Positions 281-12,110 of a DNA stretch of 64,000 bases are shown here, in pieces. A program made the translations under genes and the position numbers. Under the pieces are notes generated by a model, which was given only the letters and a program-made list of their open reading frames with translations, had not been told where the DNA came from and searched no databases. This DNA is from Desulfonatronum lacustre DSM 10312 (GTDB lineage Bacteria; Desulfobacterota; Desulfovibrionia; Desulfovibrionales; Desulfonatronaceae): positions 1,005,665 to 1,069,664 of the forward strand of contig NZ_KI912608.1 of assembly GCF_000519265.1 (NCBI RefSeq), given 5' to 3'. Within the stretch, counting starts at the first letter, position 1, and the number at the start of each line of letters is the position of its first letter.

Positions 281-1507
281 ATGATGACAATCAAAATGCG
301 CATCGGAAACTTTGGCGAGAGGCTATGGGATGCCATATTCCGTCCCAAAATTGATGAGCAGGCCTTGAACGCGGCCCTGGGCAAGGCCAGGGCCGCGCAC
401 CCACCTCCCGTCGTCTGGCTGCTGGGCAAAACCCAGGCCGGGAAAACGTCGATTATTCGCTCGTTAACCGGCAGTCCGGACGCCGAAATCGGCAACGGTT
501 TTCAAAGCTGCACAAAAACGGCCCGGTTTTACGACCATCCCATGGACTTGCCCATTGTGCGCTTCCTCGACACCCAGGGTTTGGGTGAGGTGGCTTACGA
601 CCCAAGTGAAGACATTGCGTTCTGCGAGTCCCAGGCGCATTTGATCATCGCGGTCATCAAGGCGGGCGACAGCTTGCAGGATGCTGTTTTTGGCGTTCTG
701 CGCACGGTTCGTGAGCGGCACCCGGAATGGCCGGTGATCATTGTTCAGAGCTGTCTGCATGAAGTCTATTCCCCTGGAGTTGGGCACGTCCAACCCTATC
801 CTTTCACAGTGTCCGGTTGGGAATCCTCCGTTCCTGGGGACCTGGCCCGCTGTCTGCTCTTTCAGCGGAACACCTTGGGTGTTCTTCCGGGTAAAGGTCC
901 GGTCCATTGGGTCCCCGTGGATTTGACTCTTCCCGAAGATGGTTTTTCCCCTCCGGACTATGGACTGGAATCACTATGGGCCGCCATTGAGCAGGCATCC
1001 GCGATGCAATTGGAAAATCGGTTGCGCGGGGACCGGGGTGTTCGGGATTTGCGCCAGCAAACCGCGCATCAACATATCGTCGGTTATGCCAAGGCTGCCG
1101 TGGCGGTTGGGGCATTGCCCATGGTCGACCTGGCAATGATTCCGGCCTTGCAGATGAAGATGCTGCACAGCCTGGGAGAAATTCATGGCGGGGAATGGAA
1201 CAAGCGCCGGATCAGTGAGTTTGGTGGATTGTTGGGCGGCGGCTTCCTGGCCGGATATGGACTGCGACTGGTCGGACGAAGCGCCATTAAAGTCATTCCA
1301 GGCTACGGACAAACCCTCGGCGCGGCGTATGGGGCCGTCACCAGTGCCGCCGTCACCTTCGCTCTGGGCAAGACAGCCAGTTACTACCTGGAATGCTCCC
1401 TTGCAGGCAAGCTCCCCGGCAAAGCCACTTTGCGCGACGTCTTCAACCAAGCCCTGAACACGGGCAAAGGCATCGCGACATCGTTTCTCGGCAAGGAGCA
1501 GGCATGA
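281..1507 (+). CDS. GTPase with C-terminal DUF697-like domain
   Basis: A 408-residue P-loop GTPase. The G1 motif GKTQAGKTS is at residues 49-57 and a G3-like DTQGLGE at 97-103. The C-terminal third (about 260-400) is Ala/Gly-rich and hydrophobic, with a PxxDLAMIPALQMKM segment followed by glycine-rich helices, as in DUF697/YcjF-type membrane-associated domains. The same kind of domain recurs in the protein at 10568-11518. The stop overlaps the next GTPase start (ATGA), so the two are translationally coupled. An ATG at 296 is an alternative start; neither has a strong Shine-Dalgarno. The cellular role of such paired GTPases is not established; stress or membrane-associated defence roles are possible. 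The family assignment is by motif only. Confidence 0.75.
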   Translation: MMTIKMRIGNFGERLWDAIFRPKIDEQALNAALGKARAAHPPPVVWLLGKTQAGKTSIIRSLTGSPDAEIGNGFQSCTKTARFYDHPMDLPIVRFLDTQGLGEVAYDPSEDIAFCESQAHLIIAVIKAGDSLQDAVFGVLRTVRERHPEWPVIIVQSCLHEVYSPGVGHVQPYPFTVSGWESSVPGDLARCLLFQRNTLGVLPGKGPVHWVPVDLTLPEDGFSPPDYGLESLWAAIEQASAMQLENRLRGDRGVRDLRQQTAHQHIVGYAKAAVAVGALPMVDLAMIPALQMKMLHSLGEIHGGEWNKRRISEFGGLLGGGFLAGYGLRLVGRSAIKVIPGYGQTLGAAYGAVTSAAVTFALGKTASYYLECSLAGKLPGKATLRDVFNQALNTGKGIATSFLGKEQA

Positions 1508-3051
1508 TTACCAGAACACACCTCTTCCGACAGTTTGGGGGGCTACGAATGCTCTCCGTTGTTCTCGCGGGACTGCCGTTGCTGATCTTGCCCGTTCTCG
1601 GCCTTGTCTGGCTCTGGCAGGCTGATTTGCGGACGTACTGGCTGTTGGCTTTGGGTTTTTGTGCCGTCCTGGGCTATGGGCTGCACGCTTTGATGGCCAG
1701 GCAGGACAACCGCAGGGTTCCGCTTCAGGCGACCAGGCCGGACCCCAATTGGTCGCCATGGCAAGAAGCCTGCTGGGAAGTGGTGGAGCGCATGGCCGCG
1801 CAAACCACTCCGCAAGACTGGCCACTGGATGATGTTCAGAAATTGGCCCTTCTGGGAAGAAACACCCTGGAAACCGTAGCCAGGCAGTACCATCCGGAAA
1901 CGGAAAACCCGCTGTTGGAATTGACGATCCCCCATGCCCTATTGATTATCGAACGGGCCAGTCGGGATCTGCGCATGGAAATCGTGCAAGCCATCCCCTT
2001 CAGCCACACCTTGACCATGGGCATGCTGGCAAAGGTCAACCGCTGGAAAGAGCAAGTCAGGCAATACGAAACGTTGTACCGCGCTGGACGATTCGTCCTC
2101 TCCCCGTATTCGTCCCTCTTTTATGAATTTCGCCGCAAACTGGGCAACAACATCGCCAACTACGGACTGGATAACGTCAAAGGCTGGCTCCTGGGCGAAT
2201 ACGTCCGCAAGGTGGGCTATTACGGCATTGAACTCTACAGCGGCCAGCTCTTGCTGGATATGCAGGACCCGACGGCCAAGCCAACCTCGTCAACAAAGGA
2301 GGACCTGGCCAACGCGGACCGGGAAGAGACCAGTCAGGCAGAGCGTGGAGAACCGTTGCGCATTCTGGTTCTGGGCCGGGCCAATGCCGGGAAATCGAGC
2401 CTGATCAACGCCCTGTTCGGTAAGCTGACAGCCGCCTCTGACATCCTGCCCCACACCACGACTGCCGTGAAAGCCTATCGTTTATACCGGGACGGCGAGG
2501 AAGATGCTTTAATTTTTGACGTCCCTGGTTGCGATACGGATCTGTTCCCGCAAAAAGCCCTGGAAAAAGAAGTTCTGGACGCGGACCTCCTGCTCTGGGT
2601 CACACCGGCCAACCAGGCTGATCGGCAAGAGGATCATCGCCAACTGGACTGGATTCGCAAAGTGTTCGCCCAGAGACAAAACAGACGGCAGCCTCCCATG
2701 GTTGCCGTCGTCAGCCACATCGACAAACTGCGTCCGTTTCAGGAATGGCAGCCGCCGTATGATCTGACATCCTCCTCGTCGACCAAGGCCCAAAACATCG
2801 CGTCAGCCGTGTCCACCATCGCCACGGACCTGGGCTTCCCGCCCGACCTGACCATCCCCGTCTGCCTCGATCCGACCCGGCTCTACAATGTCGAGGATAC
2901 CCTCGCCGCTGTACTTCTGGAGGTTCAGGGTGAGAGCCAGCGAGCCAGGATGCTGCGGTGTCTTGAGGCCAGGAAGAGTCAGGAGAAGTTGGAAATACTC
3001 GCGGGTCAGTTCAAAAATATTGGGAAAAAAGTGTTTGGGTTGGTCAGGTGA
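1504..3051 (+). CDS. Membrane-anchored GTPase (Era/50S-binding GTPase-like)
   Basis: 515 residues from the ATG that overlaps the upstream stop; the open frame extends further upstream but inside the previous gene. The N terminus has two hydrophobic segments (about residues 17-60) suggesting a membrane hairpin. A helical region follows, then a GTPase domain with GRANAGKSS (G1, about 290-298), DVPGCD (G3, about 339) and SHIDK (G4, about 404). It ends with a tail containing LTIPVCL and RLYNVEDT. The tail is duplicated as a fragment at 6038-6214. It probably works with the upstream GTPase, since the two reading frames overlap by 4 bp. Substrate and partner are unknown. Confidence 0.75.
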   Translation: MITRTHLFRQFGGLRMLSVVLAGLPLLILPVLGLVWLWQADLRTYWLLALGFCAVLGYGLHALMARQDNRRVPLQATRPDPNWSPWQEACWEVVERMAAQTTPQDWPLDDVQKLALLGRNTLETVARQYHPETENPLLELTIPHALLIIERASRDLRMEIVQAIPFSHTLTMGMLAKVNRWKEQVRQYETLYRAGRFVLSPYSSLFYEFRRKLGNNIANYGLDNVKGWLLGEYVRKVGYYGIELYSGQLLLDMQDPTAKPTSSTKEDLANADREETSQAERGEPLRILVLGRANAGKSSLINALFGKLTAASDILPHTTTAVKAYRLYRDGEEDALIFDVPGCDTDLFPQKALEKEVLDADLLLWVTPANQADRQEDHRQLDWIRKVFAQRQNRRQPPMVAVVSHIDKLRPFQEWQPPYDLTSSSSTKAQNIASAVSTIATDLGFPPDLTIPVCLDPTRLYNVEDTLAAVLLEVQGESQRARMLRCLEARKSQEKLEILAGQFKNIGKKVFGLVR

Positions 3052-3346: not shown

Positions 3347-3358
3347 TTGGAAATCGAT

Positions 3359-3658
3359 ATGGAGACCGTCCTACAGAAAGCCTTAGAAGCGATTACATCA
3401 CGAACGAATTTATCCACTGGCTTGGCGCACCCAAACGACGAGTATGCCGCGAAGGAGATGTTCAAGCGACTCCATGCATCAGGCATAACCTTGCGGGCAA
3501 ACGAAATTAGCTCATGGGCTCATATGAACGGATGGGGAAAAAAAGATGCTGATGAGTTGGGAGCGCTGGCTCAACAGATTGGAATGGGAAAAAGAGTGAA
3601 AATTAAAGACGGGCCTTGGTGGGAAAAAGATATTCTTGAAAGAATAATTAGAGATTGA
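3359..3658 (+). CDS. YoaC/DUF1889-like small protein
   Basis: About 99 residues from ATG 3359 (TTG 3347 is an alternative; GGAG lies at 3339-3342). The pattern KALEAI near the N terminus, AAKEMFKRL, a following helix with WAHMNGWG, and a KMxxGxRVxIK-like segment (GMGKRVKIKDGPWW) resembles the E. coli YoaC (DUF1889) family in order and length, by memory. That family has no known function. It is soluble, with no signal peptide or membrane segment, and stands alone at the start of an accessory block. Confidence 0.5.
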   Translation: METVLQKALEAITSRTNLSTGLAHPNDEYAAKEMFKRLHASGITLRANEISSWAHMNGWGKKDADELGALAQQIGMGKRVKIKDGPWWEKDILERIIRD

Positions 3659-3709
3659 CAATCAAATGCCGAATATAATCTCTTATGAAGGTGTTAACGC
3701 TTTGGAAAA

Positions 3710-4090
3710 ATGAACCCAGAGGAGTTGAGAGCTTGCTGAGGCTACTGGGTCAAGAATACAAGTGGTATTACAGCAGAAGCAATGGTCGGCATTTTTCAGG
3801 CCGTATTCCCCGCTGTTGGTTTCAAATCTTACCAGCACACTCTAATTATTGTTAACGCAATAATGAAAGCACTTATCGGGCGTGACTTGTCTTTTGCTGG
3901 CAATGTTGCTCTTACAAGGACTATGGTAATTTTTACTGGGCCAATAGGTTGGATAATTACTGGTCTTTGGACTGCTATTGATATTGCAGGTCCAGCCTAT
4001 CGGGTAACAATTCCAGCAGTTATTCAAGTAGCTGCTCTTCGTCAAAAATATCTTTATGAGAACCAAGCTGAGAGAGTTGAGCACATCTAA
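3710..4090 (+). pseudogene. Truncated YaaW/UPF0174-family copy with in-frame stop
   Basis: The frame encodes MNPEELRAC, then TGA (3737-3739), then about 117 further residues ending in GPAYRVTIPAVIQVAALR. It aligns position by position with the C-terminal part of the intact gene downstream (MTEDELREL to GPAYRVTIPVVCHVAYLR), so it is a 5'-truncated, stop-interrupted paralogue. A restart at ATG 3782 could still give a 102-residue hydrophobic peptide. It is more AT-rich than the intact copy. Confidence 0.7.
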
Positions 4091-4356
4091 TAGTATGAGC
4101 GGCACCTGGATATCAGTTCGAAGCTCTCGATGGAGGCATCTCCGCCCGTCTACCTTAACCGAAGGGGCATGGGCAAGCCAAAACAGAATCTCGGTATAGC
4201 CCGCCCAGAAGGGACATGGTCTTTGATTTGTTTGGCGCTCATGCCAGTCTGGCGTGGGGCTTATGCCTCATTGGAGAGAAAAGCGTTGGCATCGCTGGCC
4301 TCATCGCCAGGTACGCAAAGCGTGGAAGAACCCTAAAAACATGGAGGAATGTTCTT

Positions 4357-5091
4357 GTGACGCCCGACCCACATCTCACCGAGTTGTTCGGGACCTGTAG
4401 TGACGAGGACTTGATTCCGATAAGGGACTACATCCTCAAGGCAATGACGAACGGATTGGACACCGATGAGCACTATAAAAGGCAGCCTAACTTTCCAACA
4501 AGATACATAGACTCTCTAGTCTTCCAGATTCGAACTTTTGGTGGCAATAGCTTTGTCAACGTGTTCCGCGGCGATGGTGTGGCCTATGCCGAGATTGTGG
4601 AAGATGTCGCCAAGAAGCTCAAAGTCCACAAGGTGCCCGACTTTGATGACAAAACCGTCGAAGAGCGCGAGCAACTTGTGCTGGCGAAGATCGTGGAGGA
4701 CTCCATGAAGAATATGACTGAGGACGAATTGCGCGAACTCGAGGATCTTTTCGGCGAGGCGGGTCTCGAAGGTCGCAACTTACGAGGAGGTATACCACTC
4801 GCGGCACTGATTGCTCAAGGTGCCATTCAGCTCGCCGGATTTGCAGCATATCGCATGGCCGTAGTTGTAGCGAATGCGGTAGCCCGCCAAGTTCTCGGGC
4901 ATGGCCTCCGTCTCGCTACCAATGCTGCGCTCGCTCGCGGTATGGCAGTGTTCGCCGGGCCTATTGGGATTGCAATCACGGCAATTTGGACGCTATTCGA
5001 CATTTCTGGACCGGCGTACCGCGTGACAATCCCAGTTGTGTGTCACGTAGCCTACCTTCGAGCTAAGGCTGACTTCGCAGAATCGGTATGA
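4357..5091 (+). CDS. YaaW/UPF0174-family protein
   Basis: I place the start at GTG 4357 because an ideal GGAGGA (4343-4348) sits 8 bases upstream. The 244-residue product then has the length of E. coli YaaW (237). The N-terminal half carries a LFGTCSDEDL opening typical of the DUF3944-like part; the C-terminal half is Ala/Gly-rich and hydrophobic, ending in the family signature GPAYRVTIPVV. The molecular function of the family is unknown. The stop overlaps the start of the next gene (ATGA), so the two are probably made together. A broken paralogue lies just upstream. Confidence 0.7.
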   Translation: MTPDPHLTELFGTCSDEDLIPIRDYILKAMTNGLDTDEHYKRQPNFPTRYIDSLVFQIRTFGGNSFVNVFRGDGVAYAEIVEDVAKKLKVHKVPDFDDKTVEEREQLVLAKIVEDSMKNMTEDELRELEDLFGEAGLEGRNLRGGIPLAALIAQGAIQLAGFAAYRMAVVVANAVARQVLGHGLRLATNAALARGMAVFAGPIGIAITAIWTLFDISGPAYRVTIPVVCHVAYLRAKADFAESV

Positions 5092-6035
5092 CTACACGAC
5101 TTGACCAATTGGCCATTCTGTTTGCTGTTCCAAAGTGGATCACCGACGGCCTGAACGACGGCAATCTCATACGTCGCGGTGGCGTGATCCAAAATGCGAC
5201 GAACAACGAGATTGTCATGTGGCTACGCGAAGGCGTGCGGCTACGGGACTGGAAGCCGGACGCAACACCTCAAATTAATTCCGCGTTGCAGACGCAGTTG
5301 ACAGGTTTGAACGTGAAGGCCGACATGTTGCTCGGTTTGCAGGCGGTCAACCTCGCGGTGACCGTAGTCGGTTTCGCTACCGTCATGCACAAATTGCGGG
5401 CCATCGACCGGAAGATTGACAGTATTGTTGATCGACTCGATGCCGTTGCAAGGGATCTGAACTGGCTCGATCGACGTAAGGACATCGAGCTTCTCGCGTG
5501 TGTCGCCGCTGCGCTTGAGCAGGCATCTTGGGCTGAACGGACCGGACGTGAATCTATCGAGTTTGTCCGCGTGCGGACTCAGCTGGTTCGTGCGCATGTG
5601 CATTACACGCTGCTGTTGGACGCCATGCACGATAACGAACGGGCACATAGGCATCCGGGTATTTTCTCACGCTACTTCCACCAAGCGCAGCTGTGCGCGG
5701 CAGCCGTGACTCGCTGCGACGGCATGTTGGACGGCACGGATGCGGCACTTGCAGCCAACCTATTGCTGGGCGAGCGACTCACGCTGCTCGCCCAACGATA
5801 TCGTGACACACTCCTAAACCCACGAAAGCATCGACACCTTCTTATGCTCGCACCTCGGAATCGAGAGCAGGCTGTTTCAGTAGGCAAGGCAATCAACGAA
5901 ACAACCAATCGGATGGAAGGGCACCGTGCCGAGCTTGAGTGGTGCGCCCGTGAGCAGATCGGCTGGCGTGAATGGGAGGCGCTCGGAGACGAACACCCGG
6001 AAGCCGATCTAGTGTTTGTCTTAGCACAGAGATAA
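5088..6035 (+). CDS. Unknown protein coupled to YaaW homologue
   Basis: 315 residues, not recognised. The first 60 residues resemble a small adaptor region. A hydrophobic stretch (VNLAVTVVGFATVMHKL, about 85-101) is followed by a heptad-like segment rich in charged residues (IDRKIDSIVDRLDAVARDL, about 104-122), suggesting a membrane-proximal coiled coil. The rest is helical and Arg/His-rich. The ATGA overlap with the YaaW-family gene argues for a joint function. The gene ends one base before a fragment of the upstream GTPase, so this side marks an insertion junction. Confidence 0.6.
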   Translation: MTTRLDQLAILFAVPKWITDGLNDGNLIRRGGVIQNATNNEIVMWLREGVRLRDWKPDATPQINSALQTQLTGLNVKADMLLGLQAVNLAVTVVGFATVMHKLRAIDRKIDSIVDRLDAVARDLNWLDRRKDIELLACVAAALEQASWAERTGRESIEFVRVRTQLVRAHVHYTLLLDAMHDNERAHRHPGIFSRYFHQAQLCAAAVTRCDGMLDGTDAALAANLLLGERLTLLAQRYRDTLLNPRKHRHLLMLAPRNREQAVSVGKAINETTNRMEGHRAELEWCAREQIGWREWEALGDEHPEADLVFVLAQR

Positions 6036-6037
6036 AG

Positions 6038-6214
6038 ACGGGCCTGGACCTGACCATCCCGGTCTGCCTTGCCCAGGATCGGCTGTACAATGTGGAGGAT
6101 ACCCTGGCGGCGGTGATCCTGGAGCAACAGAACGAATGCGAAAAGGCCAGGTTTCTGCGCGTTCTGGAAGTTCGGAAAAAAGGGAAACCTGGGAGAAGGT
6201 TGTTGTGCAGATGA
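6038..6214 (+). pseudogene. Duplicated C-terminal fragment of the GTPase gene
   Basis: The frame reads LDLTIPVCLAQDRLYNVEDT and continues with LAAVILE and an RFLRVLEVRK segment. This matches the tail of the GTPase encoded at 1504-3051 (DLTIPVCL, RLYNVEDTLAAVLLE, RMLRCLEARK), and the DNA is also alike (gacctgaccatccc, gtacaatgt). No start or P-loop remains. It is a relic of a second GTPase gene copy or a recombination scar. Confidence 0.75.
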
Positions 6215-6310
6215 GGAATGCGGGGAGGGTGTTGAGTTCGTTGGTTAAGCGATAAGACTTGGTATGTCGCTGATGGCGATTATGGCAGGAATGGGGTGCA
6301 TATCTTAATC

Positions 6311-6463
6311 ATGATTGTAGGTGGGCGAGGATTCCTCCAGCGGGCGTTCCAAACAGGGGATGCTCAACTTCTCGAGGTGTTACGTCAATTCCGAATTACA
6401 AATAACACAGATGTTTTTGAAGAGGTCATTGCAGAAAGTCTTCGCTCATGGTCAATTGTATGA
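6311..6463 (+). CDS. Small ORF in gene-poor gap, doubtful
   Basis: A 50-residue open frame (begins MIVGGRGFLQ, ends SLRSWSIV) in the gap 6215-6694. It has balanced composition and acidic/hydrophobic alternation that look protein-like, but no clear Shine-Dalgarno. It may be a gene fragment. The rest of the gap shows nothing else I can support. Confidence 0.25.
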   Translation: MIVGGRGFLQRAFQTGDAQLLEVLRQFRITNNTDVFEEVIAESLRSWSIV

Positions 6464-6694
6464 TTGGCCAACGGATGATAGAGGGTGGCCGTGAAAACGT
6501 GGTCAAAACGTAGCAATAATGCCATAAAATTGGAGCTATTTCCGCCTTCAAATTTTACAAAAACCTAATTTTCGGAAACGCCTAATGTTCCCATACTGAT
6601 ACTGAGGCAGGGTATAGAGCTTTATGCGCACCAAAAACTGGATTGCTGACTTTCTCGAATTATCGGAACATCAAAATTAAGATAGGAGGAATCC

Positions 6695-7105
6695 ATGGAC
6701 AAGTACCATACTAACTCGCACGGTCCAGATCGCGAGGCTCTTGTACGTGCATACAAGCACACTCTTGAACTAGCCCAGGCAGGAAGTAGCGTTGCCTATA
6801 TTTCGACGCACACGACAAATAATGTGACATCAGGATTATCTGCAGTCCTTGGAAATACTGGCGTCAAGAGGCTCGTCAAAGAGAAATCACTGACAGTCGA
6901 TGGTGGCGTTATCTTGTATCTACAGACCGAGAAGATTGCTCCAGCCATCAGTGAATCTGGCCCTGTTCTTGCCCCATACGTTAGCTTGCAACTCGCATTG
7001 GCAGTTCTTGAAGACTCGAGGGCTTCTACTCTTGTCTATGTTCCGTGGACGGAAAAGGAACTCTCCACATATCTTGCAGCAAACGGGGATTCACAGGAAA
7101 TCTGA
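6695..7105 (+). CDS. Hypothetical protein, 136 aa
   Basis: The start is well supported: TAGGAGG lies just ahead of the ATG. The product is soluble with mixed alpha/beta predicted character (VAYISTHT, GGVILYLQ, LVYVPWTEKE) and no signal peptide or membrane segment. I do not recognise the family. The GC content drops here relative to the flanking GTPase genes, and the gene stands alone, consistent with acquired DNA. Confidence 0.6.
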   Translation: MDKYHTNSHGPDREALVRAYKHTLELAQAGSSVAYISTHTTNNVTSGLSAVLGNTGVKRLVKEKSLTVDGGVILYLQTEKIAPAISESGPVLAPYVSLQLALAVLEDSRASTLVYVPWTEKELSTYLAANGDSQEI

Positions 7106-7437
7106 TTCCAAAAAATGACGGGAGCATAATGCTCTTGATAGTGATAGTCTCTGACCAAATGCGGGCCTACTCAACTGAGGCGTATGCTTTGTTTATTGGT
7201 CAAAATCTCTACATTTGGCTATTTATGAAATGCCAAATATCCTGAATTTTAATGCCCTTTTAGCAAATGCATTTTTTAATGCTTCTTTTGGAATAGAAAT
7301 CTTTCATACAGTTTAAATTAATGGAGAGTTTGAAAATCTTTGAACGTGAATAAATTGAAAGTCAATAAGTAATACCGCGTTAGGATCAGGCGATAACATT
7401 TATAATAATTTTAAACTCAAAAGTAAATTAACATTGG
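7106..7437. other. AT-rich intergenic gap
   Basis: About 330 bases of very AT-rich sequence with no open frame that looks like a gene and no strong hairpin. It probably contains the promoter of the two-gene unit that follows, but no site can be named with confidence. Confidence 0.4.
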
Positions 7438-8016
7438 ATGCTTATTATGTTAGGAAAGAAAAATATTATCGTTGTCGCTCCCGATAAGTATAAAGACTTT
7501 GCTCGAGAATTATCACATTTAATATCTAAAAAGCATGGATTCTCGAGTTCATATTGGTCAGTAGAACACTTCGAGGCTAATGAATGTAATCTCAGTGGTG
7601 AACAGTATGCTATATTTATTGGCAATCCGGATGAAAATTCTCTTACAGAAGCTTATTTGCGTGTAATAGGCAATATAAGCAGCAAATATGGAGCATGTTA
7701 TGGATATGATTCATCAAAAGCTATTGTTTTTGGCGAAGGCAAAGAGGAGCAGTTGCAGCTTGTTAATCAAATCAACAATTCTATAAAAGGTATACTATCT
7801 TTAGAGGGGTCTACATCGAATGAAAATCGTTCTGAAATTTTAGTTTTTATAGACATAATAGATGATTTGTTAAAAAAAACAAATCCAGTATACTACTACA
7901 TACAAAAATATTTTTTGAATGGGCAGCTTGATGAGTTGAAAAATCAGCAGTTAAAGCTAGCTATCTTAACATTTTTGAATGAAGAGTTTAACGATTGGAC
8001 AAGTGTTGAAAATTGA
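7438..8016 (+). CDS. Unknown alpha/beta protein, first gene of a pair
   Basis: About 192 residues (ATG 7438, or 7447). It opens with a beta-strand KKNIIVVAP and a following helix, then an EQYAIFIGNPDEN strand-loop, then strand KAIVFGEG, which looks like a small Rossmann- or TIR-like alpha/beta domain over residues 1-110. A helical, Lys/Glu-rich C terminus follows. I cannot assign a family. Codon use is strongly AT-biased compared with the core genes. Only 10 bases separate it from the next gene, so both are likely co-transcribed. An effector-sensor or toxin-immunity arrangement is possible but unproven. Confidence 0.6.
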   Translation: MLIMLGKKNIIVVAPDKYKDFARELSHLISKKHGFSSSYWSVEHFEANECNLSGEQYAIFIGNPDENSLTEAYLRVIGNISSKYGACYGYDSSKAIVFGEGKEEQLQLVNQINNSIKGILSLEGSTSNENRSEILVFIDIIDDLLKKTNPVYYYIQKYFLNGQLDELKNQQLKLAILTFLNEEFNDWTSVEN

Positions 8017-8026
8017 GACAATCGTT

Positions 8027-9427
8027 ATGAATTCATTTGAATACTATTTCAGATCCGTGAATGATCAATCAGGTGGGACATTAGGCACATTTCATGGTAC
8101 TAATTATATTCAAGAAGTAGAAAGCGCAATTAATAACGCCAACAGAGCTCTTCAAAATGAAGCTAGCCATCGAAGTAACGTCTCTGTTGATTATCTCAAG
8201 GGCTGGTTAGCCGAACAATGGCACGCTGAGACATTAAAAGTGAATGCGTCTGCCAAAGGACGTGATGACATTTGGGCTAAAGTACAGTCAAATAATACAC
8301 CAGGGGAAGATGTCCTCTTCGGAAATGCCAATAAATCATTTGTAGCTGAAGTAAAATACTACAGGACAGGTGAAGACACCGCTAAAGCCATTAGCAGACC
8401 TGACTATGAAAACAGCTTCAAAGTTGTCCCAGGTGATCAGAAAGAAGTCGTTATACACGCAGCAGAGAGATTAGCCATAAAAAACCAGGTTAATCGTCCT
8501 GAACAGGCTGCCCATTATCATGACACTGCTAATCGTGCTTCGGACAGGTTGCATGTTGATAATGTCTCTTCTAGGCCACTAGATGAGCACGTAGCCAAAG
8601 ATATGTCAAAGGACTTTAAACGGGATGGTGATATTGACCTTGAAAAATATGGGCTTCTCAGCAAAAACTTTGTCGAATGGACAGATATTGCAAGGGAATC
8701 TGGTGAAGCTGCTTTACATGCTGCGGCTCTTTCCGCTGCCATAACAGCGGCACCTTATATCTGGGCTTGTATTGACAAGTCTTTTAAAGAAGGTTCGATT
8801 AATCTTGATTCACTGACTAATAATAGTCAAAACGTACTATTTGGAGCAGGTGCAGCAGGTTTAAGAGGTGGAATTGCCGCTTGCTTAACAGCTTCTTGCA
8901 AATCAGGATTGCTTGGGGAATCCTTAAAATCAATATCTCCTTTTGCAATAGGAATGGCTACGACAATAGCTATCAACACAATCAGTCACTCAATTCAATT
9001 GCGAAATGGAAAAATTTCAAAAAATGAATTTTCTTTTTACTGCTTAAGAGACACTTTTATTCTTTCTAGTTCAATCAGTGGAGCCTACATAGGCCAACTA
9101 TTAATTCCGATACCAATTCTTGGCTCTATTGCTGGAAATATTGTCGGAGCAACTCTTGGTTCGGTTATATTTTACGGAACAAATCATATAATGTTAGGTT
9201 TGTGTGTTAAAAATGGGTGGACATTTTTTGGAATTGTCGATCAAAACTATACTATTTCTGAAGCTATCTTGAAAAAGTCTGGATTTGATATGATACAACT
9301 CAAAAATTTTAATACCCATTTTTTTGAATATAACAGATTTAACTACGATAAGTTTGAGTTCAACAAACTTGAGATTTCTCAGGTTAAGCGAGGTATGATC
9401 TCGTGCAGGGCGGTTGGCTATGTTTAG
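8027..9427 (+). CDS. Unknown protein: nuclease-like N terminus, membrane C terminus
   Basis: 466 residues from ATG 8027 (the open frame extends upstream into the previous gene). Around residues 88-105 there is GEDVLF followed by FVAEVKYY, that is D-x13-E-V-K, which fits a PD-(D/E)xK nuclease core. From about residue 225 the protein becomes Ala/Gly-rich and hydrophobic (FGAGAAGLRGGIAACLTA, LIPIPILGSIAGNIVGA), suggesting several membrane helices or a glycine zipper. No signal peptide. AT-rich codon use as in its partner. The family is unknown to me; the nuclease reading rests on one short motif. Confidence 0.6.
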   Translation: MNSFEYYFRSVNDQSGGTLGTFHGTNYIQEVESAINNANRALQNEASHRSNVSVDYLKGWLAEQWHAETLKVNASAKGRDDIWAKVQSNNTPGEDVLFGNANKSFVAEVKYYRTGEDTAKAISRPDYENSFKVVPGDQKEVVIHAAERLAIKNQVNRPEQAAHYHDTANRASDRLHVDNVSSRPLDEHVAKDMSKDFKRDGDIDLEKYGLLSKNFVEWTDIARESGEAALHAAALSAAITAAPYIWACIDKSFKEGSINLDSLTNNSQNVLFGAGAAGLRGGIAACLTASCKSGLLGESLKSISPFAIGMATTIAINTISHSIQLRNGKISKNEFSFYCLRDTFILSSSISGAYIGQLLIPIPILGSIAGNIVGATLGSVIFYGTNHIMLGLCVKNGWTFFGIVDQNYTISEAILKKSGFDMIQLKNFNTHFFEYNRFNYDKFEFNKLEISQVKRGMISCRAVGYV

Positions 9428-9480
9428 TGTGACTCGCTGAAGTGAGTTGCAAATAATCGAGATTACTGCATGGTCATTTT

Positions 9481-10506
9481 ATGCCCATAATATCTCCCAT
9501 GCCCACCACGCTCCGCCACCTCGCCATGCTCCGGCGCATCCCCCGCGCACCGGCCTTCATCACAACGCCTGATCTCCGTTCCGCTCTGGAATCTCTTGAC
9601 TACACCGTAGACATCCGCACGGTGCAACGCGACCTGGAAGCCCTGTCCTCGGTTTTTCCTCTGTACTGCGACACGTCGTCCAAGCCCTTCCGCTGGCAAT
9701 GGCTGGCCGGAGGGGAGGTTTTCGACATTCCCGGCATTGATGCCCACAGCGCCTTGGTTTTCAAGCTGGCGGGCATGTTCCTGGAGCCCTTGTTGCCGGT
9801 ATCCGCCATGGAAACGCTGATGCCGTACTTCCGGTGCGCGGACAGGGTGCTTGGTGAATCCGGAGCACGGTGCGGGTCATGGTCGGACAAGGTCCGGGTT
9901 CTGCCGCGTGGTCAGCGTCTGCTCATGCCGGACGTATCGAGGACGGTTCTTGACGGGATTCACCAGGGCCTGTTTTTTGGCCGCATGGTCAAGATTCTCT
10001 ACAAATCCAGGGGCAAGCAGGATTTCAAGGAATATCTCATCAATCCCCTTGGGCTTGTCCTGCGCAATGGCCTGATCTACCTCGTCTGCACCTTTTCCGG
10101 CTACGAGGATATCCGCCAGCTTCTGCTGCATCGGATGCGACAGGCTGAAGTCGTGAACGAGCCCTGCGCGGTTCCTGATGGATTTGATCTGGACGGATAT
10201 ATCCAGGACCAGGAGTTTGATCTTGCCCGTGGCCGTCCGGACATCCCTCTCCGGTTTCGTTTCCGCGCCGTTCCCGCAAGCGCCCTGTATGAGACGCCCT
10301 TGAGCGCGGACCAGGTCATCACCCCTCTTGCCGACAGGCAATGGGTCGAGGTGAGTGCGACCGTCGCGGATACGGACCAGTTGCGCTGGTGGTTGTTGGG
10401 GTTTGGGAATCAGGTTGAAGTTTTGGAGCCGGTGGCCTTGCGGGAGGAATTTTGCGCGATTGCCCAGGATATGGGCAGATTGTATGCGGCTTCTGACTCG
10501 GTTTGA
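9481..10506 (+). CDS. WYL-domain transcriptional regulator
   Basis: 341 residues (ATG 9481 or 9499). The N terminus is a winged helix-turn-helix of the YafY type (LRHLAMLRRIP, RTVQRDLEALS). The middle and C terminus fit a WYL domain (VKILYKSRGKQ, INPLGLVLRNGLIYLV, LLHRMRQAEV) and a WCX-like end. WYL proteins bind small ligands or nucleic acid and often control defence or DNA-damage genes. It lies 62 bases upstream of the TerB/DUF697-like gene on the same strand and may regulate that gene or the accessory block to its left. Confidence 0.85.
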   Translation: MPIISPMPTTLRHLAMLRRIPRAPAFITTPDLRSALESLDYTVDIRTVQRDLEALSSVFPLYCDTSSKPFRWQWLAGGEVFDIPGIDAHSALVFKLAGMFLEPLLPVSAMETLMPYFRCADRVLGESGARCGSWSDKVRVLPRGQRLLMPDVSRTVLDGIHQGLFFGRMVKILYKSRGKQDFKEYLINPLGLVLRNGLIYLVCTFSGYEDIRQLLLHRMRQAEVVNEPCAVPDGFDLDGYIQDQEFDLARGRPDIPLRFRFRAVPASALYETPLSADQVITPLADRQWVEVSATVADTDQLRWWLLGFGNQVEVLEPVALREEFCAIAQDMGRLYAASDSV

Positions 10507-10567
10507 TTGGATTGTATTGGCGTGGGGCTTCGGATAGTCCTTCTTATTTCCTACAAGGGGAACTTCA

Positions 10568-11518
10568 ATGAACGAGCATGAACAGAAAGCAATACTGACC
10601 ATCTGCCTGATGGCCGCCTTTTCCGATGGCAGGAAGGACGAGCGCGAGCGGGAGCAAATCAAGCGCATTGCGGACAGCCTCGGCCAGGAGACCAGAATCG
10701 ACGTCGCCTCGCTGTACCAGGACGTTCTCCTGAAGCGCCGCACCCTGGACCATGCCGTCGCGTCCCTCACCAGCCCGGAGGCCCGCATGTTGGCCTATGA
10801 GATGGCCGTGTGCGTTTGCGATGCCGATGGAGTGAACACTGATGCGGAAGTGGCCTTCCTTGAACGCTTGCGTTCCGCCTTGGAGCTGGATGCCCAGGCA
10901 TCAAGCACTTTCGCTTCAGAGGCAGCGGCAATCGCGGACTACTCCTTTGAGACGGAAAGCCCACCAGCCCCACCAGTCACCAACAGGCCCGCGGCGCAGG
11001 TCAACGTCCCTGAGTTGGACAAGATGATTCTCAACACCGCCATCCTGAACGGCGCGCTGGAACTCCTGCCCCAGTCCCTGGCCTCCATGGCGATTCTCCC
11101 TCTGCAGATGAAGATGGTCTACAAGGTGGGCAAGGCCTACGGCTTTGAACTGGACCGGGGGCATATCAAGGATTTTGCCGCGACCCTGGGCATCGGGCTG
11201 ACCGGCCAGTACGTGGAACAGATGGGCCGCAAGCTCCTGGGCGGCATCCTGGGGAAGCTCGGCGGCGGGTTGATGGGCGGGCTGGGCAACGCCGCCACGG
11301 GCTCGGCGTTCTCCTTTGCCACAACCTACGCCCTGGGTCAGGTGGCCAAGGAATACTACGCCAGCGGGCGATCCATCAGCATGAACCAGCTCAAACAGAT
11401 TTTTGCGTCCCTGCTGGAAAAAGGCAAAGCCATGCAGTCCAACTACGCCGGTGAAATCCAGCAGCGGGCCAACACCGTCGATACCCGGCAGATCGCGGGG
11501 TTGATCCGGGGGCAGTGA
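10568..11518 (+). CDS. TerB-like protein with DUF697-like C terminus
   Basis: 316 residues, ATG preceded by AAGGGGA. Residues 1-125 look like a TerB/DUF533-type helical domain: MAAFSDGRKDEREREQIKRI, then CVCDADGVNTDAEVAFLERL, with the paired acidic motifs of that family. A linker rich in Pro follows. Residues 155-300 are a hydrophobic, Gly-rich domain with LPLQMKMVYKVGKAYG and AATLGIGLTGQYVEQMGRK, similar in order to the C terminus of the GTPase at 281-1507. The shared domain links the two loci. A membrane stress function is plausible; tellurite resistance is not implied. Confidence 0.75.
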   Translation: MNEHEQKAILTICLMAAFSDGRKDEREREQIKRIADSLGQETRIDVASLYQDVLLKRRTLDHAVASLTSPEARMLAYEMAVCVCDADGVNTDAEVAFLERLRSALELDAQASSTFASEAAAIADYSFETESPPAPPVTNRPAAQVNVPELDKMILNTAILNGALELLPQSLASMAILPLQMKMVYKVGKAYGFELDRGHIKDFAATLGIGLTGQYVEQMGRKLLGGILGKLGGGLMGGLGNAATGSAFSFATTYALGQVAKEYYASGRSISMNQLKQIFASLLEKGKAMQSNYAGEIQQRANTVDTRQIAGLIRGQ

Positions 11519-11552
11519 AGGTTTGTGGATTCAATAGAGAGTCAAGCCACGC

Positions 11553-12110
11553 TCACTCACCCAACACCTCGTCAAGCAAGGGCCGCAATACCGGCAACAC
11601 AGCGGCCACGATGGCGTCCACACCGGCCTCGTTGGGGTGCAGGCCGTCGGGGAGGGTCAGATCCAGGTTGCCGGGAATGCCTGGGAGAAAGTCGGGCATC
11701 AGGGGCACCTGCTTTTCCCTGGCCAGTTCCTGATAGAGATTGTGGAACCGTGCGTCGTACTCGCCCTGGCCGGACAGCGAGCGGACGCCGGTCAGGAGCA
11801 CCAGCGCACCGGCACCTTGGCATTTTTCGATGATCCGCGCCAGATTGGCCTTGATCTCTTCCACCGGCAACCCCGAATACCAGTCGTTGGTTCCGAACTC
11901 GACAATGACGAGGTCTGGGTTATGGGCAAGAAGGCGATCAATGCGGCGCAGGCCGTCATATGCCGTATCACCGGACACGCCGCCGTCGATCACTCGGACA
12001 TCCCTGCCTTCGCGATTCAGAATCTGTTCCAGCCGGGATGCAAAGGACGCTTCCGGCGCAAGGCCGTATCCTGTGGTCAGGCTGTCGCCCAGGGCCAGGA
12101 TCGTGATCAT
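11553..12110 (-). CDS. GDSL/SGNH-family esterase (TesA-like)
   Basis: 185 residues with all four SGNH blocks: ALGDSLTTGYG (catalytic Ser) at the N terminus, GGVSGDT (oxyanion Gly), EFGTNDW (Asn) and DGLHPNEAG (Asp/His) near the C terminus. Size and layout match TesA-type arylesterase/thioesterase I, but there is no signal peptide, so the enzyme should be cytoplasmic unlike E. coli TesA. Substrate cannot be told from sequence. Confidence 0.9.
   Translation of the reverse strand: MITILALGDSLTTGYGLAPEASFASRLEQILNREGRDVRVIDGGVSGDTAYDGLRRIDRLLAHNPDLVIVEFGTNDWYSGLPVEEIKANLARIIEKCQGAGALVLLTGVRSLSGQGEYDARFHNLYQELAREKQVPLMPDFLPGIPGNLDLTLPDGLHPNEAGVDAIVAAVLPVLRPLLDEVLGE

Follow-up and report, generated by a model that had tools for sequence, protein, structure and literature searches.

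What do the two overlapping genes near the beginning of a 64,000-nucleotide (nt) stretch of contig NZ_KI912608.1 of Desulfonatronum lacustre DSM 10312 (hereafter, the window) encode, and why do they stand together? Both lie on the forward strand, the first (244 amino acids, aa) at 4357-5091 and the second (315 aa) at 5088-6035. An initial annotation described them as a YaaW-like gene, preceded by a broken copy of itself, and a partner of no assigned function, together forming a possible membrane-acting two-gene module. Our analysis indicates that this formerly nameless pair is, with high probability, a divergent anti-phage pair of the Juk (jumbo phage killer) type and thus a testable phage defence, in which a JukA-family protein is the proposed phage sensor and a JukB-like protein the proposed pore-forming effector. 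In Pseudomonas aeruginosa, JukA is reported to recognise, at the vesicle around injected phage DNA, a protein made early by the phage and to recruit JukB, and pores follow (PMC13282480, PMC12931631), JukB being the pore-former that acts on the vesicle (PMC13282480); silencing of jukA in strain PA14 results in sensitivity to phage phiKZ (PMC12571901). The likely anti-phage function was missing from the initial annotation, as were the likely start of jukA and the different JukA kind of the broken gene.

Judging from its sequence, the first gene encodes a JukA-family protein. Its 244-aa form matches the PADLOC model PDLC04111 (JukA) with an expect value (E) of 2.8e-71 and 237.9 bits, and hhalign relates it, at 98.6% over 209 columns, to six JukAs adjoining strong JukBs. 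The YaaW relation proposed initially survives as a remote one, JukA being the better identity: NCBIfam PRK10236, which we take to be YaaW, reaches 61.8 bits, far under its cut-off of 395, and Pfam PF03981 (Ubiq_cyt_C_chap) reaches 19.4 bits, under its gathering score of 21.5. Both labels, YaaW and ubiquinol-cytochrome-C chaperone, stem from remote matches below curated cut-offs, and a cytochrome chaperone function is not implied for JukA. A control search with the JukA model also gives a match in Escherichia coli, and a PDB sequence search with the window JukA returned no match of note (best E 0.38). The open reading frame (ORF) can be read from ATG 4216 (4216-5091, 291 aa), although GTG 4357 is the likely start, preferred because a GGAGG stands ahead of it (4343-4347), alignments to the two top JukA models set in only at residues 55 and 53 of the 291-aa ORF, and the shorter form keeps the score of the longer one (237.2 bits). 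Pointing to an earlier start, tblastn matches to Citrobacter and Enterobacter run from residue 10 and those to Azotobacter from residue 25; in both fetched records of these matches, the alignment also extends upstream of the annotated jukA start.

The 315-aa protein gave no match in Pfam and NCBIfam scans, and the PADLOC model PDLC04114 (JukB) matches it over residues 67-120 with E 2.2e-5 and 22.1 bits, a level at which automatic tools can miss the pair. Its relation to JukB emerges more clearly from alignments. Out of 12 PADLOC JukB matches, six reach 408-499 bits and are referred to here as strong JukBs, the other six being weak; in hmmsearch, a profile of the strong ones scores the window protein at 23.2 bits (E 3.2e-8 among 15 sequences). 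A five-member family alignment (the window protein, its relatives in stretches L042, L044 and L045, and that of Azospirillum) matches the six strong JukBs in hhalign at 98.1%, with E 1.4e-13 and a score of 98.9 over residues 11-146, whereas the controls score 18.8 (reversed alignment) and no higher than 22.5 (40 column shuffles). The common region comprises an N-terminal GGV motif, a hydrophobic segment, which reads GLQ(AV/VA)N(L/T)A..V.GF in the close family and GLNLAV...GF in strong JukBs, and the stretch behind it. The hydrophobic segment noted in the initial annotation is the one clear stretch of this kind in the window protein, at residues 81-99 (mean Kyte-Doolittle 1.85), and a long charged region comes after it; going by sequence only, the most hydrophobic 19-residue window starts at residue 58-99 in the 15 compared sequences, and at 81 in the window protein. 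By these alignments, the 315-aa protein is a member of a family that shares homology with JukB across roughly the first 146 residues, adding a divergent JukB branch to the Juk family. A PDB sequence search with it gave no match of note (best E 0.23).

Does the arrangement of the two genes recur elsewhere? In the window, the TGA that ends jukA (5089-5091) and the ATG that begins the jukB-like gene (5088) have the letters ATGA in common (5088-5091), as first reported, and translational coupling is probable. In the family of genome G713, probably Pseudomonadaceae, a JukB match was found in at least 12 of the 298 genomes searched (not every candidate was scored), and jukA lies directly upstream of the JukB-like gene in nine of these 12, the exceptions being L040, L041 and L043. 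The same order, with ATGA, is present in Azospirillum oryzae (L014 and L017, two strains counted once), and no JukA was found in the 6.5 kilobases (kb) of an Anaerolineae relative (L016), 1 kb of which lies upstream. Outside the window, jukA is directly upstream with overlapping ends in 10 of 14 genomes carrying a JukB-like gene; three weak cases (G535, G386 and L021) were left out of this count. The two-gene module envisaged at the outset turned on whether YaaW homologues and the 315-aa family are neighbours across genomes, and such adjacency is too frequent for the two to be said never to meet. The two-gene part of that proposal holds, as JukA plus a JukB-like gene, and membrane action fits, as suggested by the one hydrophobic segment.

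Across 11 such pairs, that of the window included, the ends overlap by 4-10 nt, or by 20 nt in L046 by the first in-frame start, and the exact ATGA junction occurs in five. The closest relatives found of the 315-aa protein (L044, L045 and L042; phmmer E 6e-28 to 1e-30, 32% identity) stand behind clear JukAs (E 1e-47 to 3e-50) in genomes G841, G865 and G947, probably Pseudomonadaceae, and the overlap between the two genes is 8-20 nt there, counted from the first in-frame start. They differ from the window in their junction, ATGGCTGA instead of ATGA, and in their surroundings: G841 carries a WYL gene upstream, G865 a two-piece look-alike (by eye) and G947 a tandem jukA. The likeness to Juk (JukAB) of P. 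aeruginosa consists of a jukA followed by a JukB-like gene with overlapping ends, a common N-terminal motif with hydrophobic segment, and patchy occurrence.

Broader searches covered several collections. A five-row JukB-like model, run on the phylum of the own genome, hit two of 395 genomes, the own one and the weak G386 (21 bits, not counted); a two-row model, run on Pseudomonadota, hit two of 398, Azospirillum and, with a weak match left uncounted, G535 (21 bits, within a frame of 869 aa). The Anaerolineae genome holds a second weak place (L021, 27 bits, not counted). Single-protein scans returned no relatives of JukA from genome contigs and none of JukA or the 315-aa protein from viral contigs; an alignment-based scan of genome contigs found two. 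Among plasmid records, 17 contain a JukA match and one, from Azospirillum, a weak 315-aa match. One JukA-like match came from phage records, in an unannotated 8.4-kb Bacteriophage sp. record, and E. coli genomes gave no match at the DNA level.

Three relatives lacking jukA, all from the G713 family, are informative as well. In L049 (5759-7448), L050 (5822-7511) and L051 (6121-7768; all reverse-strand coordinates), the JukB-like gene follows a hydrophobic protein of 233-236 aa, overlapping it by 8-11 nt. This protein is no JukA by hhalign (1.4 and 2.1%), had no Pfam match above cut-off in the two scanned, and shows a weak LeoBC match in two of the three; it is a possible alternative sensor for a JukB-type effector. 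Two of these loci lie among BREX-like genes, and the Azospirillum pair lies directly behind a DNA-methyltransferase-like gene (labels assigned by eye). Such neighbours speak against a toxin-antitoxin or housekeeping membrane pair with no part in phage defence, which would suit the overlapping two-gene layout and the hydrophobic partner. Both proteins also match defence models in PADLOC, the occurrence is patchy (one of eight genomes in the genus), and no toxin or antitoxin families appear among the Pfam, NCBIfam and PADLOC matches of either; we consider this explanation very improbable.

JukA, in turn, keeps varied company. In the phylum of G403, a search with a single PADLOC JukA model (out of three) matched 10 of 398 genomes, and phmmer detected a JukB-like gene within the 1.5-kb flanks only in Azospirillum. 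Four of these 10 matches sit inside a longer frame (547-616 aa), with a hydrolase-like motif (by eye) in the two that were read; one JukA adjoins a PDC-M09B gene and another forms a 590-aa fusion. In G631, a 218-aa gene (L024 776-1432, reverse strand), not JukB-like by phmmer, overlaps the end of jukA and is perhaps another JukA partner, and Methylomonas LL1 carries a 599-aa JukA fusion. The presence of JukA is therefore no marker for a JukB-like effector. These varied partners agree with the statement in PMC13282480 that JukA pairs with diverse effectors and is sometimes solo.

Two further layouts were observed. In L013 (3965-5764) and L031 (124-1896), JukA is fused to a long C-terminal part whose layout recalls a JukB-type partner (by eye); the fusion protein of L013, the one scanned, gave no PADLOC JukB match. 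In enterobacterial plasmids (L007 3160-6952 and L015 3019-6811), a WYL gene and a 404-aa JukA-type gene are followed by a 528-aa protein, which in L007, the one scanned, matches PADLOC PDC-M40B with E 6e-62.

How might the window pair act? By analogy with the Pseudomonas system, from which sensing, recruitment, pore formation and target phage are all carried over, JukA would recognise a protein that a giant phage makes early and anchors in the vesicle enclosing its injected DNA, and would recruit the JukB-like protein to it. The hydrophobic helix of the latter could then insert and its copies assemble as a pore, opening the vesicle and giving host nucleases access to the phage DNA. Granted a Juk-type pair, we lean slightly toward the vesicle as its target.

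Several observations weigh against the Juk assignment or this mode of action. By single-sequence methods the similarity to JukB is weak (22-23 bits to strong JukBs), the family match is confined to residues 11-146, and the C-terminal half of the 315-aa protein did not align to JukB. The jukA-less genes of L049-L051 match the 315-aa family in hhalign at 97.8%, with a score of 92.7 over 224 columns, nearly as well as the strong JukBs do, and so the window protein is related to JukB without standing clearly closer to JukB proper than to these genes. An AlphaFold2 model of it, built on an alignment of three sequences, is of low confidence, with a predicted local distance difference test score (pLDDT) of 45.5 and a predicted template modelling score (pTM) of 0.28. 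In the tree, the window JukA belongs to a clade other than that partnering strong JukBs, and no JukB-like gene is present in the 12 kb read around either the nearest JukA found, that of G544 (E 3e-59), or the JukA of G631 (E 4e-49). Authentic JukAB also has a narrow range: in one study, its clone in PAO1 blocked none of 15 phages, for which the authors blame the panel (PMC12735699). Finally, the host, which a haem b synthase AhbD match suggests to be a relative of sulfate reducers, perhaps in the Desulfovibrionales, apparently lies outside the Pseudomonadota, and the trigger may differ in this host group; the pair raises the question whether vesicle-forming phages infect such bacteria.

Some of these points would also suit a JukA-type sensor joined to a membrane-acting effector that turns on the infected cell itself, killing or stalling it at the inner membrane (abortive infection) rather than opening a vesicle. 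JukA being seen beside or fused to quite different partners, here and according to PMC13282480, agrees with such an arrangement, as does the distance of the 315-aa protein from the strong JukBs. Nevertheless, the family-level match to JukB takes in the GGV motif as well as the hydrophobic segment with what follows it, and JukB of the known system acts, as reported, on the vesicle, which leaves abortive infection unlikely in our estimation.

For the Juk-type pair, the occurrence of JukB-like genes behind a non-JukA protein in L049-L051 means that JukB may be used with more than one sensor, and suggests that the JukB part is re-used. A tentative extension, which we would not yet favour, is that JukB-type proteins constitute a modular family of pore-forming effectors with varied sensors, the window pair representing one branch of a broader design, a sensor plus a vesicle porin, which extends to bacteria resembling sulfate reducers. 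If true, it would imply either vesicle-forming phages in these bacteria or a broader target.

What, then, is the broken gene upstream? Its reading frame, at 3710-4090 on the forward strand, begins with ATG 3710, is interrupted by TGA at 3737 and is open onward to 4090 (ORF 3782-4090). That it is 5'-truncated and carries this TGA was correctly noted at first: in tblastn, a single frame (3710-4066) aligns with residues 125-244 of the 251-aa solo JukA on a plasmid of Methylomonas DH-1 (72% identity, E 4.9e-52), and since the alignment begins at residue 125, the first ~124 residues are gone and the last ~120 residues of a solo-type JukA are left. The remnant also matches PADLOC JukA (E 3.3e-30). 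Its description as a copy of the intact gene did not hold: the remnant is 43% identical to the intact jukA over 96 columns and 75% to Methylomonas DH-1 over 102, and in the tree, of which it fills 40% of the columns, it groups with Methylomonas DH-1 (96/96) inside a five-member solo clade of Methylomonas, Acinetobacter and Escherichia plasmids (100/100). The intact jukA stands apart from this clade, its own placement with G544 being poorly supported (85/36). A broken duplicate of the adjacent jukA was rejected for the difference in clade and in identity. Around four of the solo JukAs (DUF3944; L008-L011), the fetched stretches contain no JukB-like gene.

Base composition differs too, the content of guanine plus cytosine (G+C) being 0.425 in the remnant, 0.537 in jukA and 0.566 in the jukB-like gene; taken with the separate clades, this leads us to conclude that two jukA genes, one from each clade, arrived here. 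One could also imagine a former three-gene, two-sensor system whose upstream sensor has decayed, since genome G947 (L046) has a jukA1-jukA2-jukB tandem with both jukAs of working length. However, JukA1 of G947 is absent from the solo clade holding the remnant, the G+C contents disagree, and the loci L047 (G841) and L048 (G865) have one detected jukA each, in 13 kb each, making a former three-gene system quite unlikely. The remnant is instead probably what decay has left of a solo-type jukA with an origin of its own; it points to turnover of defence genes and is probably not a working part of the pair. Ahead of it, in the same low-G+C stretch and outside the pair, lies a forward-strand gene (3347-3658, G+C 0.452) for a 103-aa DUF1889 protein (Pfam PF08986, E 4.3e-12).

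The wider neighbourhood indicates how the pair may have arrived. It lies behind two GTPase genes, the first (281-1507) with a DUF697-like part and the second, GTPase-B (1498-3051), with MMR_HSR1/dynamin matches, and a 3' remnant of GTPase-B follows it on the same strand at 6017-6181 (tblastn, 60% over GTPase-B residues 440-494, E 5.7e-15), marking the cassette edge; its alignment enters the 3' end of the jukB-like gene by a few codons. Positions 6047-6177 are a 70% direct repeat of 2845-2975 in GTPase-B; a fresh insertion duplication was rejected, the copies being merely 70% alike. Both GTPase genes occur together at all six loci examined (five relatives and a second full copy in the own genome), and in those stretches of 7 to 19 kb tblastn (E 1e-4) gave no match to jukA, the jukB-like gene, the jukA remnant or other query genes from 3347-12110 except the GTPase remnant. 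In six of eight genomes of the genus, the own included, GTPase-B has a strong match and the tandem GTPase pair is present, and the 315-aa gene is found in the own genome alone; with the same single model, JukA was detected in two of 395 genomes of the phylum, the second being weak (G001, L004, E 2.7e-4) and not found again by phmmer. From these three counts, the pair appears patchy and was probably acquired. The divergent Juk subtype is rare in its phylum. In P. aeruginosa, the neighbourhoods of JukAB are reported to be mostly integrative elements and plasmids (PMC10896350). A promoter and terminator scan of the locus gave nothing above the level of shuffled sequence.

Further along, a 482-aa PDC-M09B-like protein (7979-9427; PADLOC, 43.5 bits) and a WYL regulator (WYL-WCX, 9481-10506) give the region from 3.3 to 10.5 kb the look of a small defence island. 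A clear PDC-M09B (536 bits) stands beside JukA in G725 (L025 16-1179) and has a weak phmmer match to the 482-aa protein (E 7e-6). Next to the WYL-WCX regulator, at 10568-11518, is a gene for a 316-aa protein with TerB/DUF533 and DUF697-like matches.

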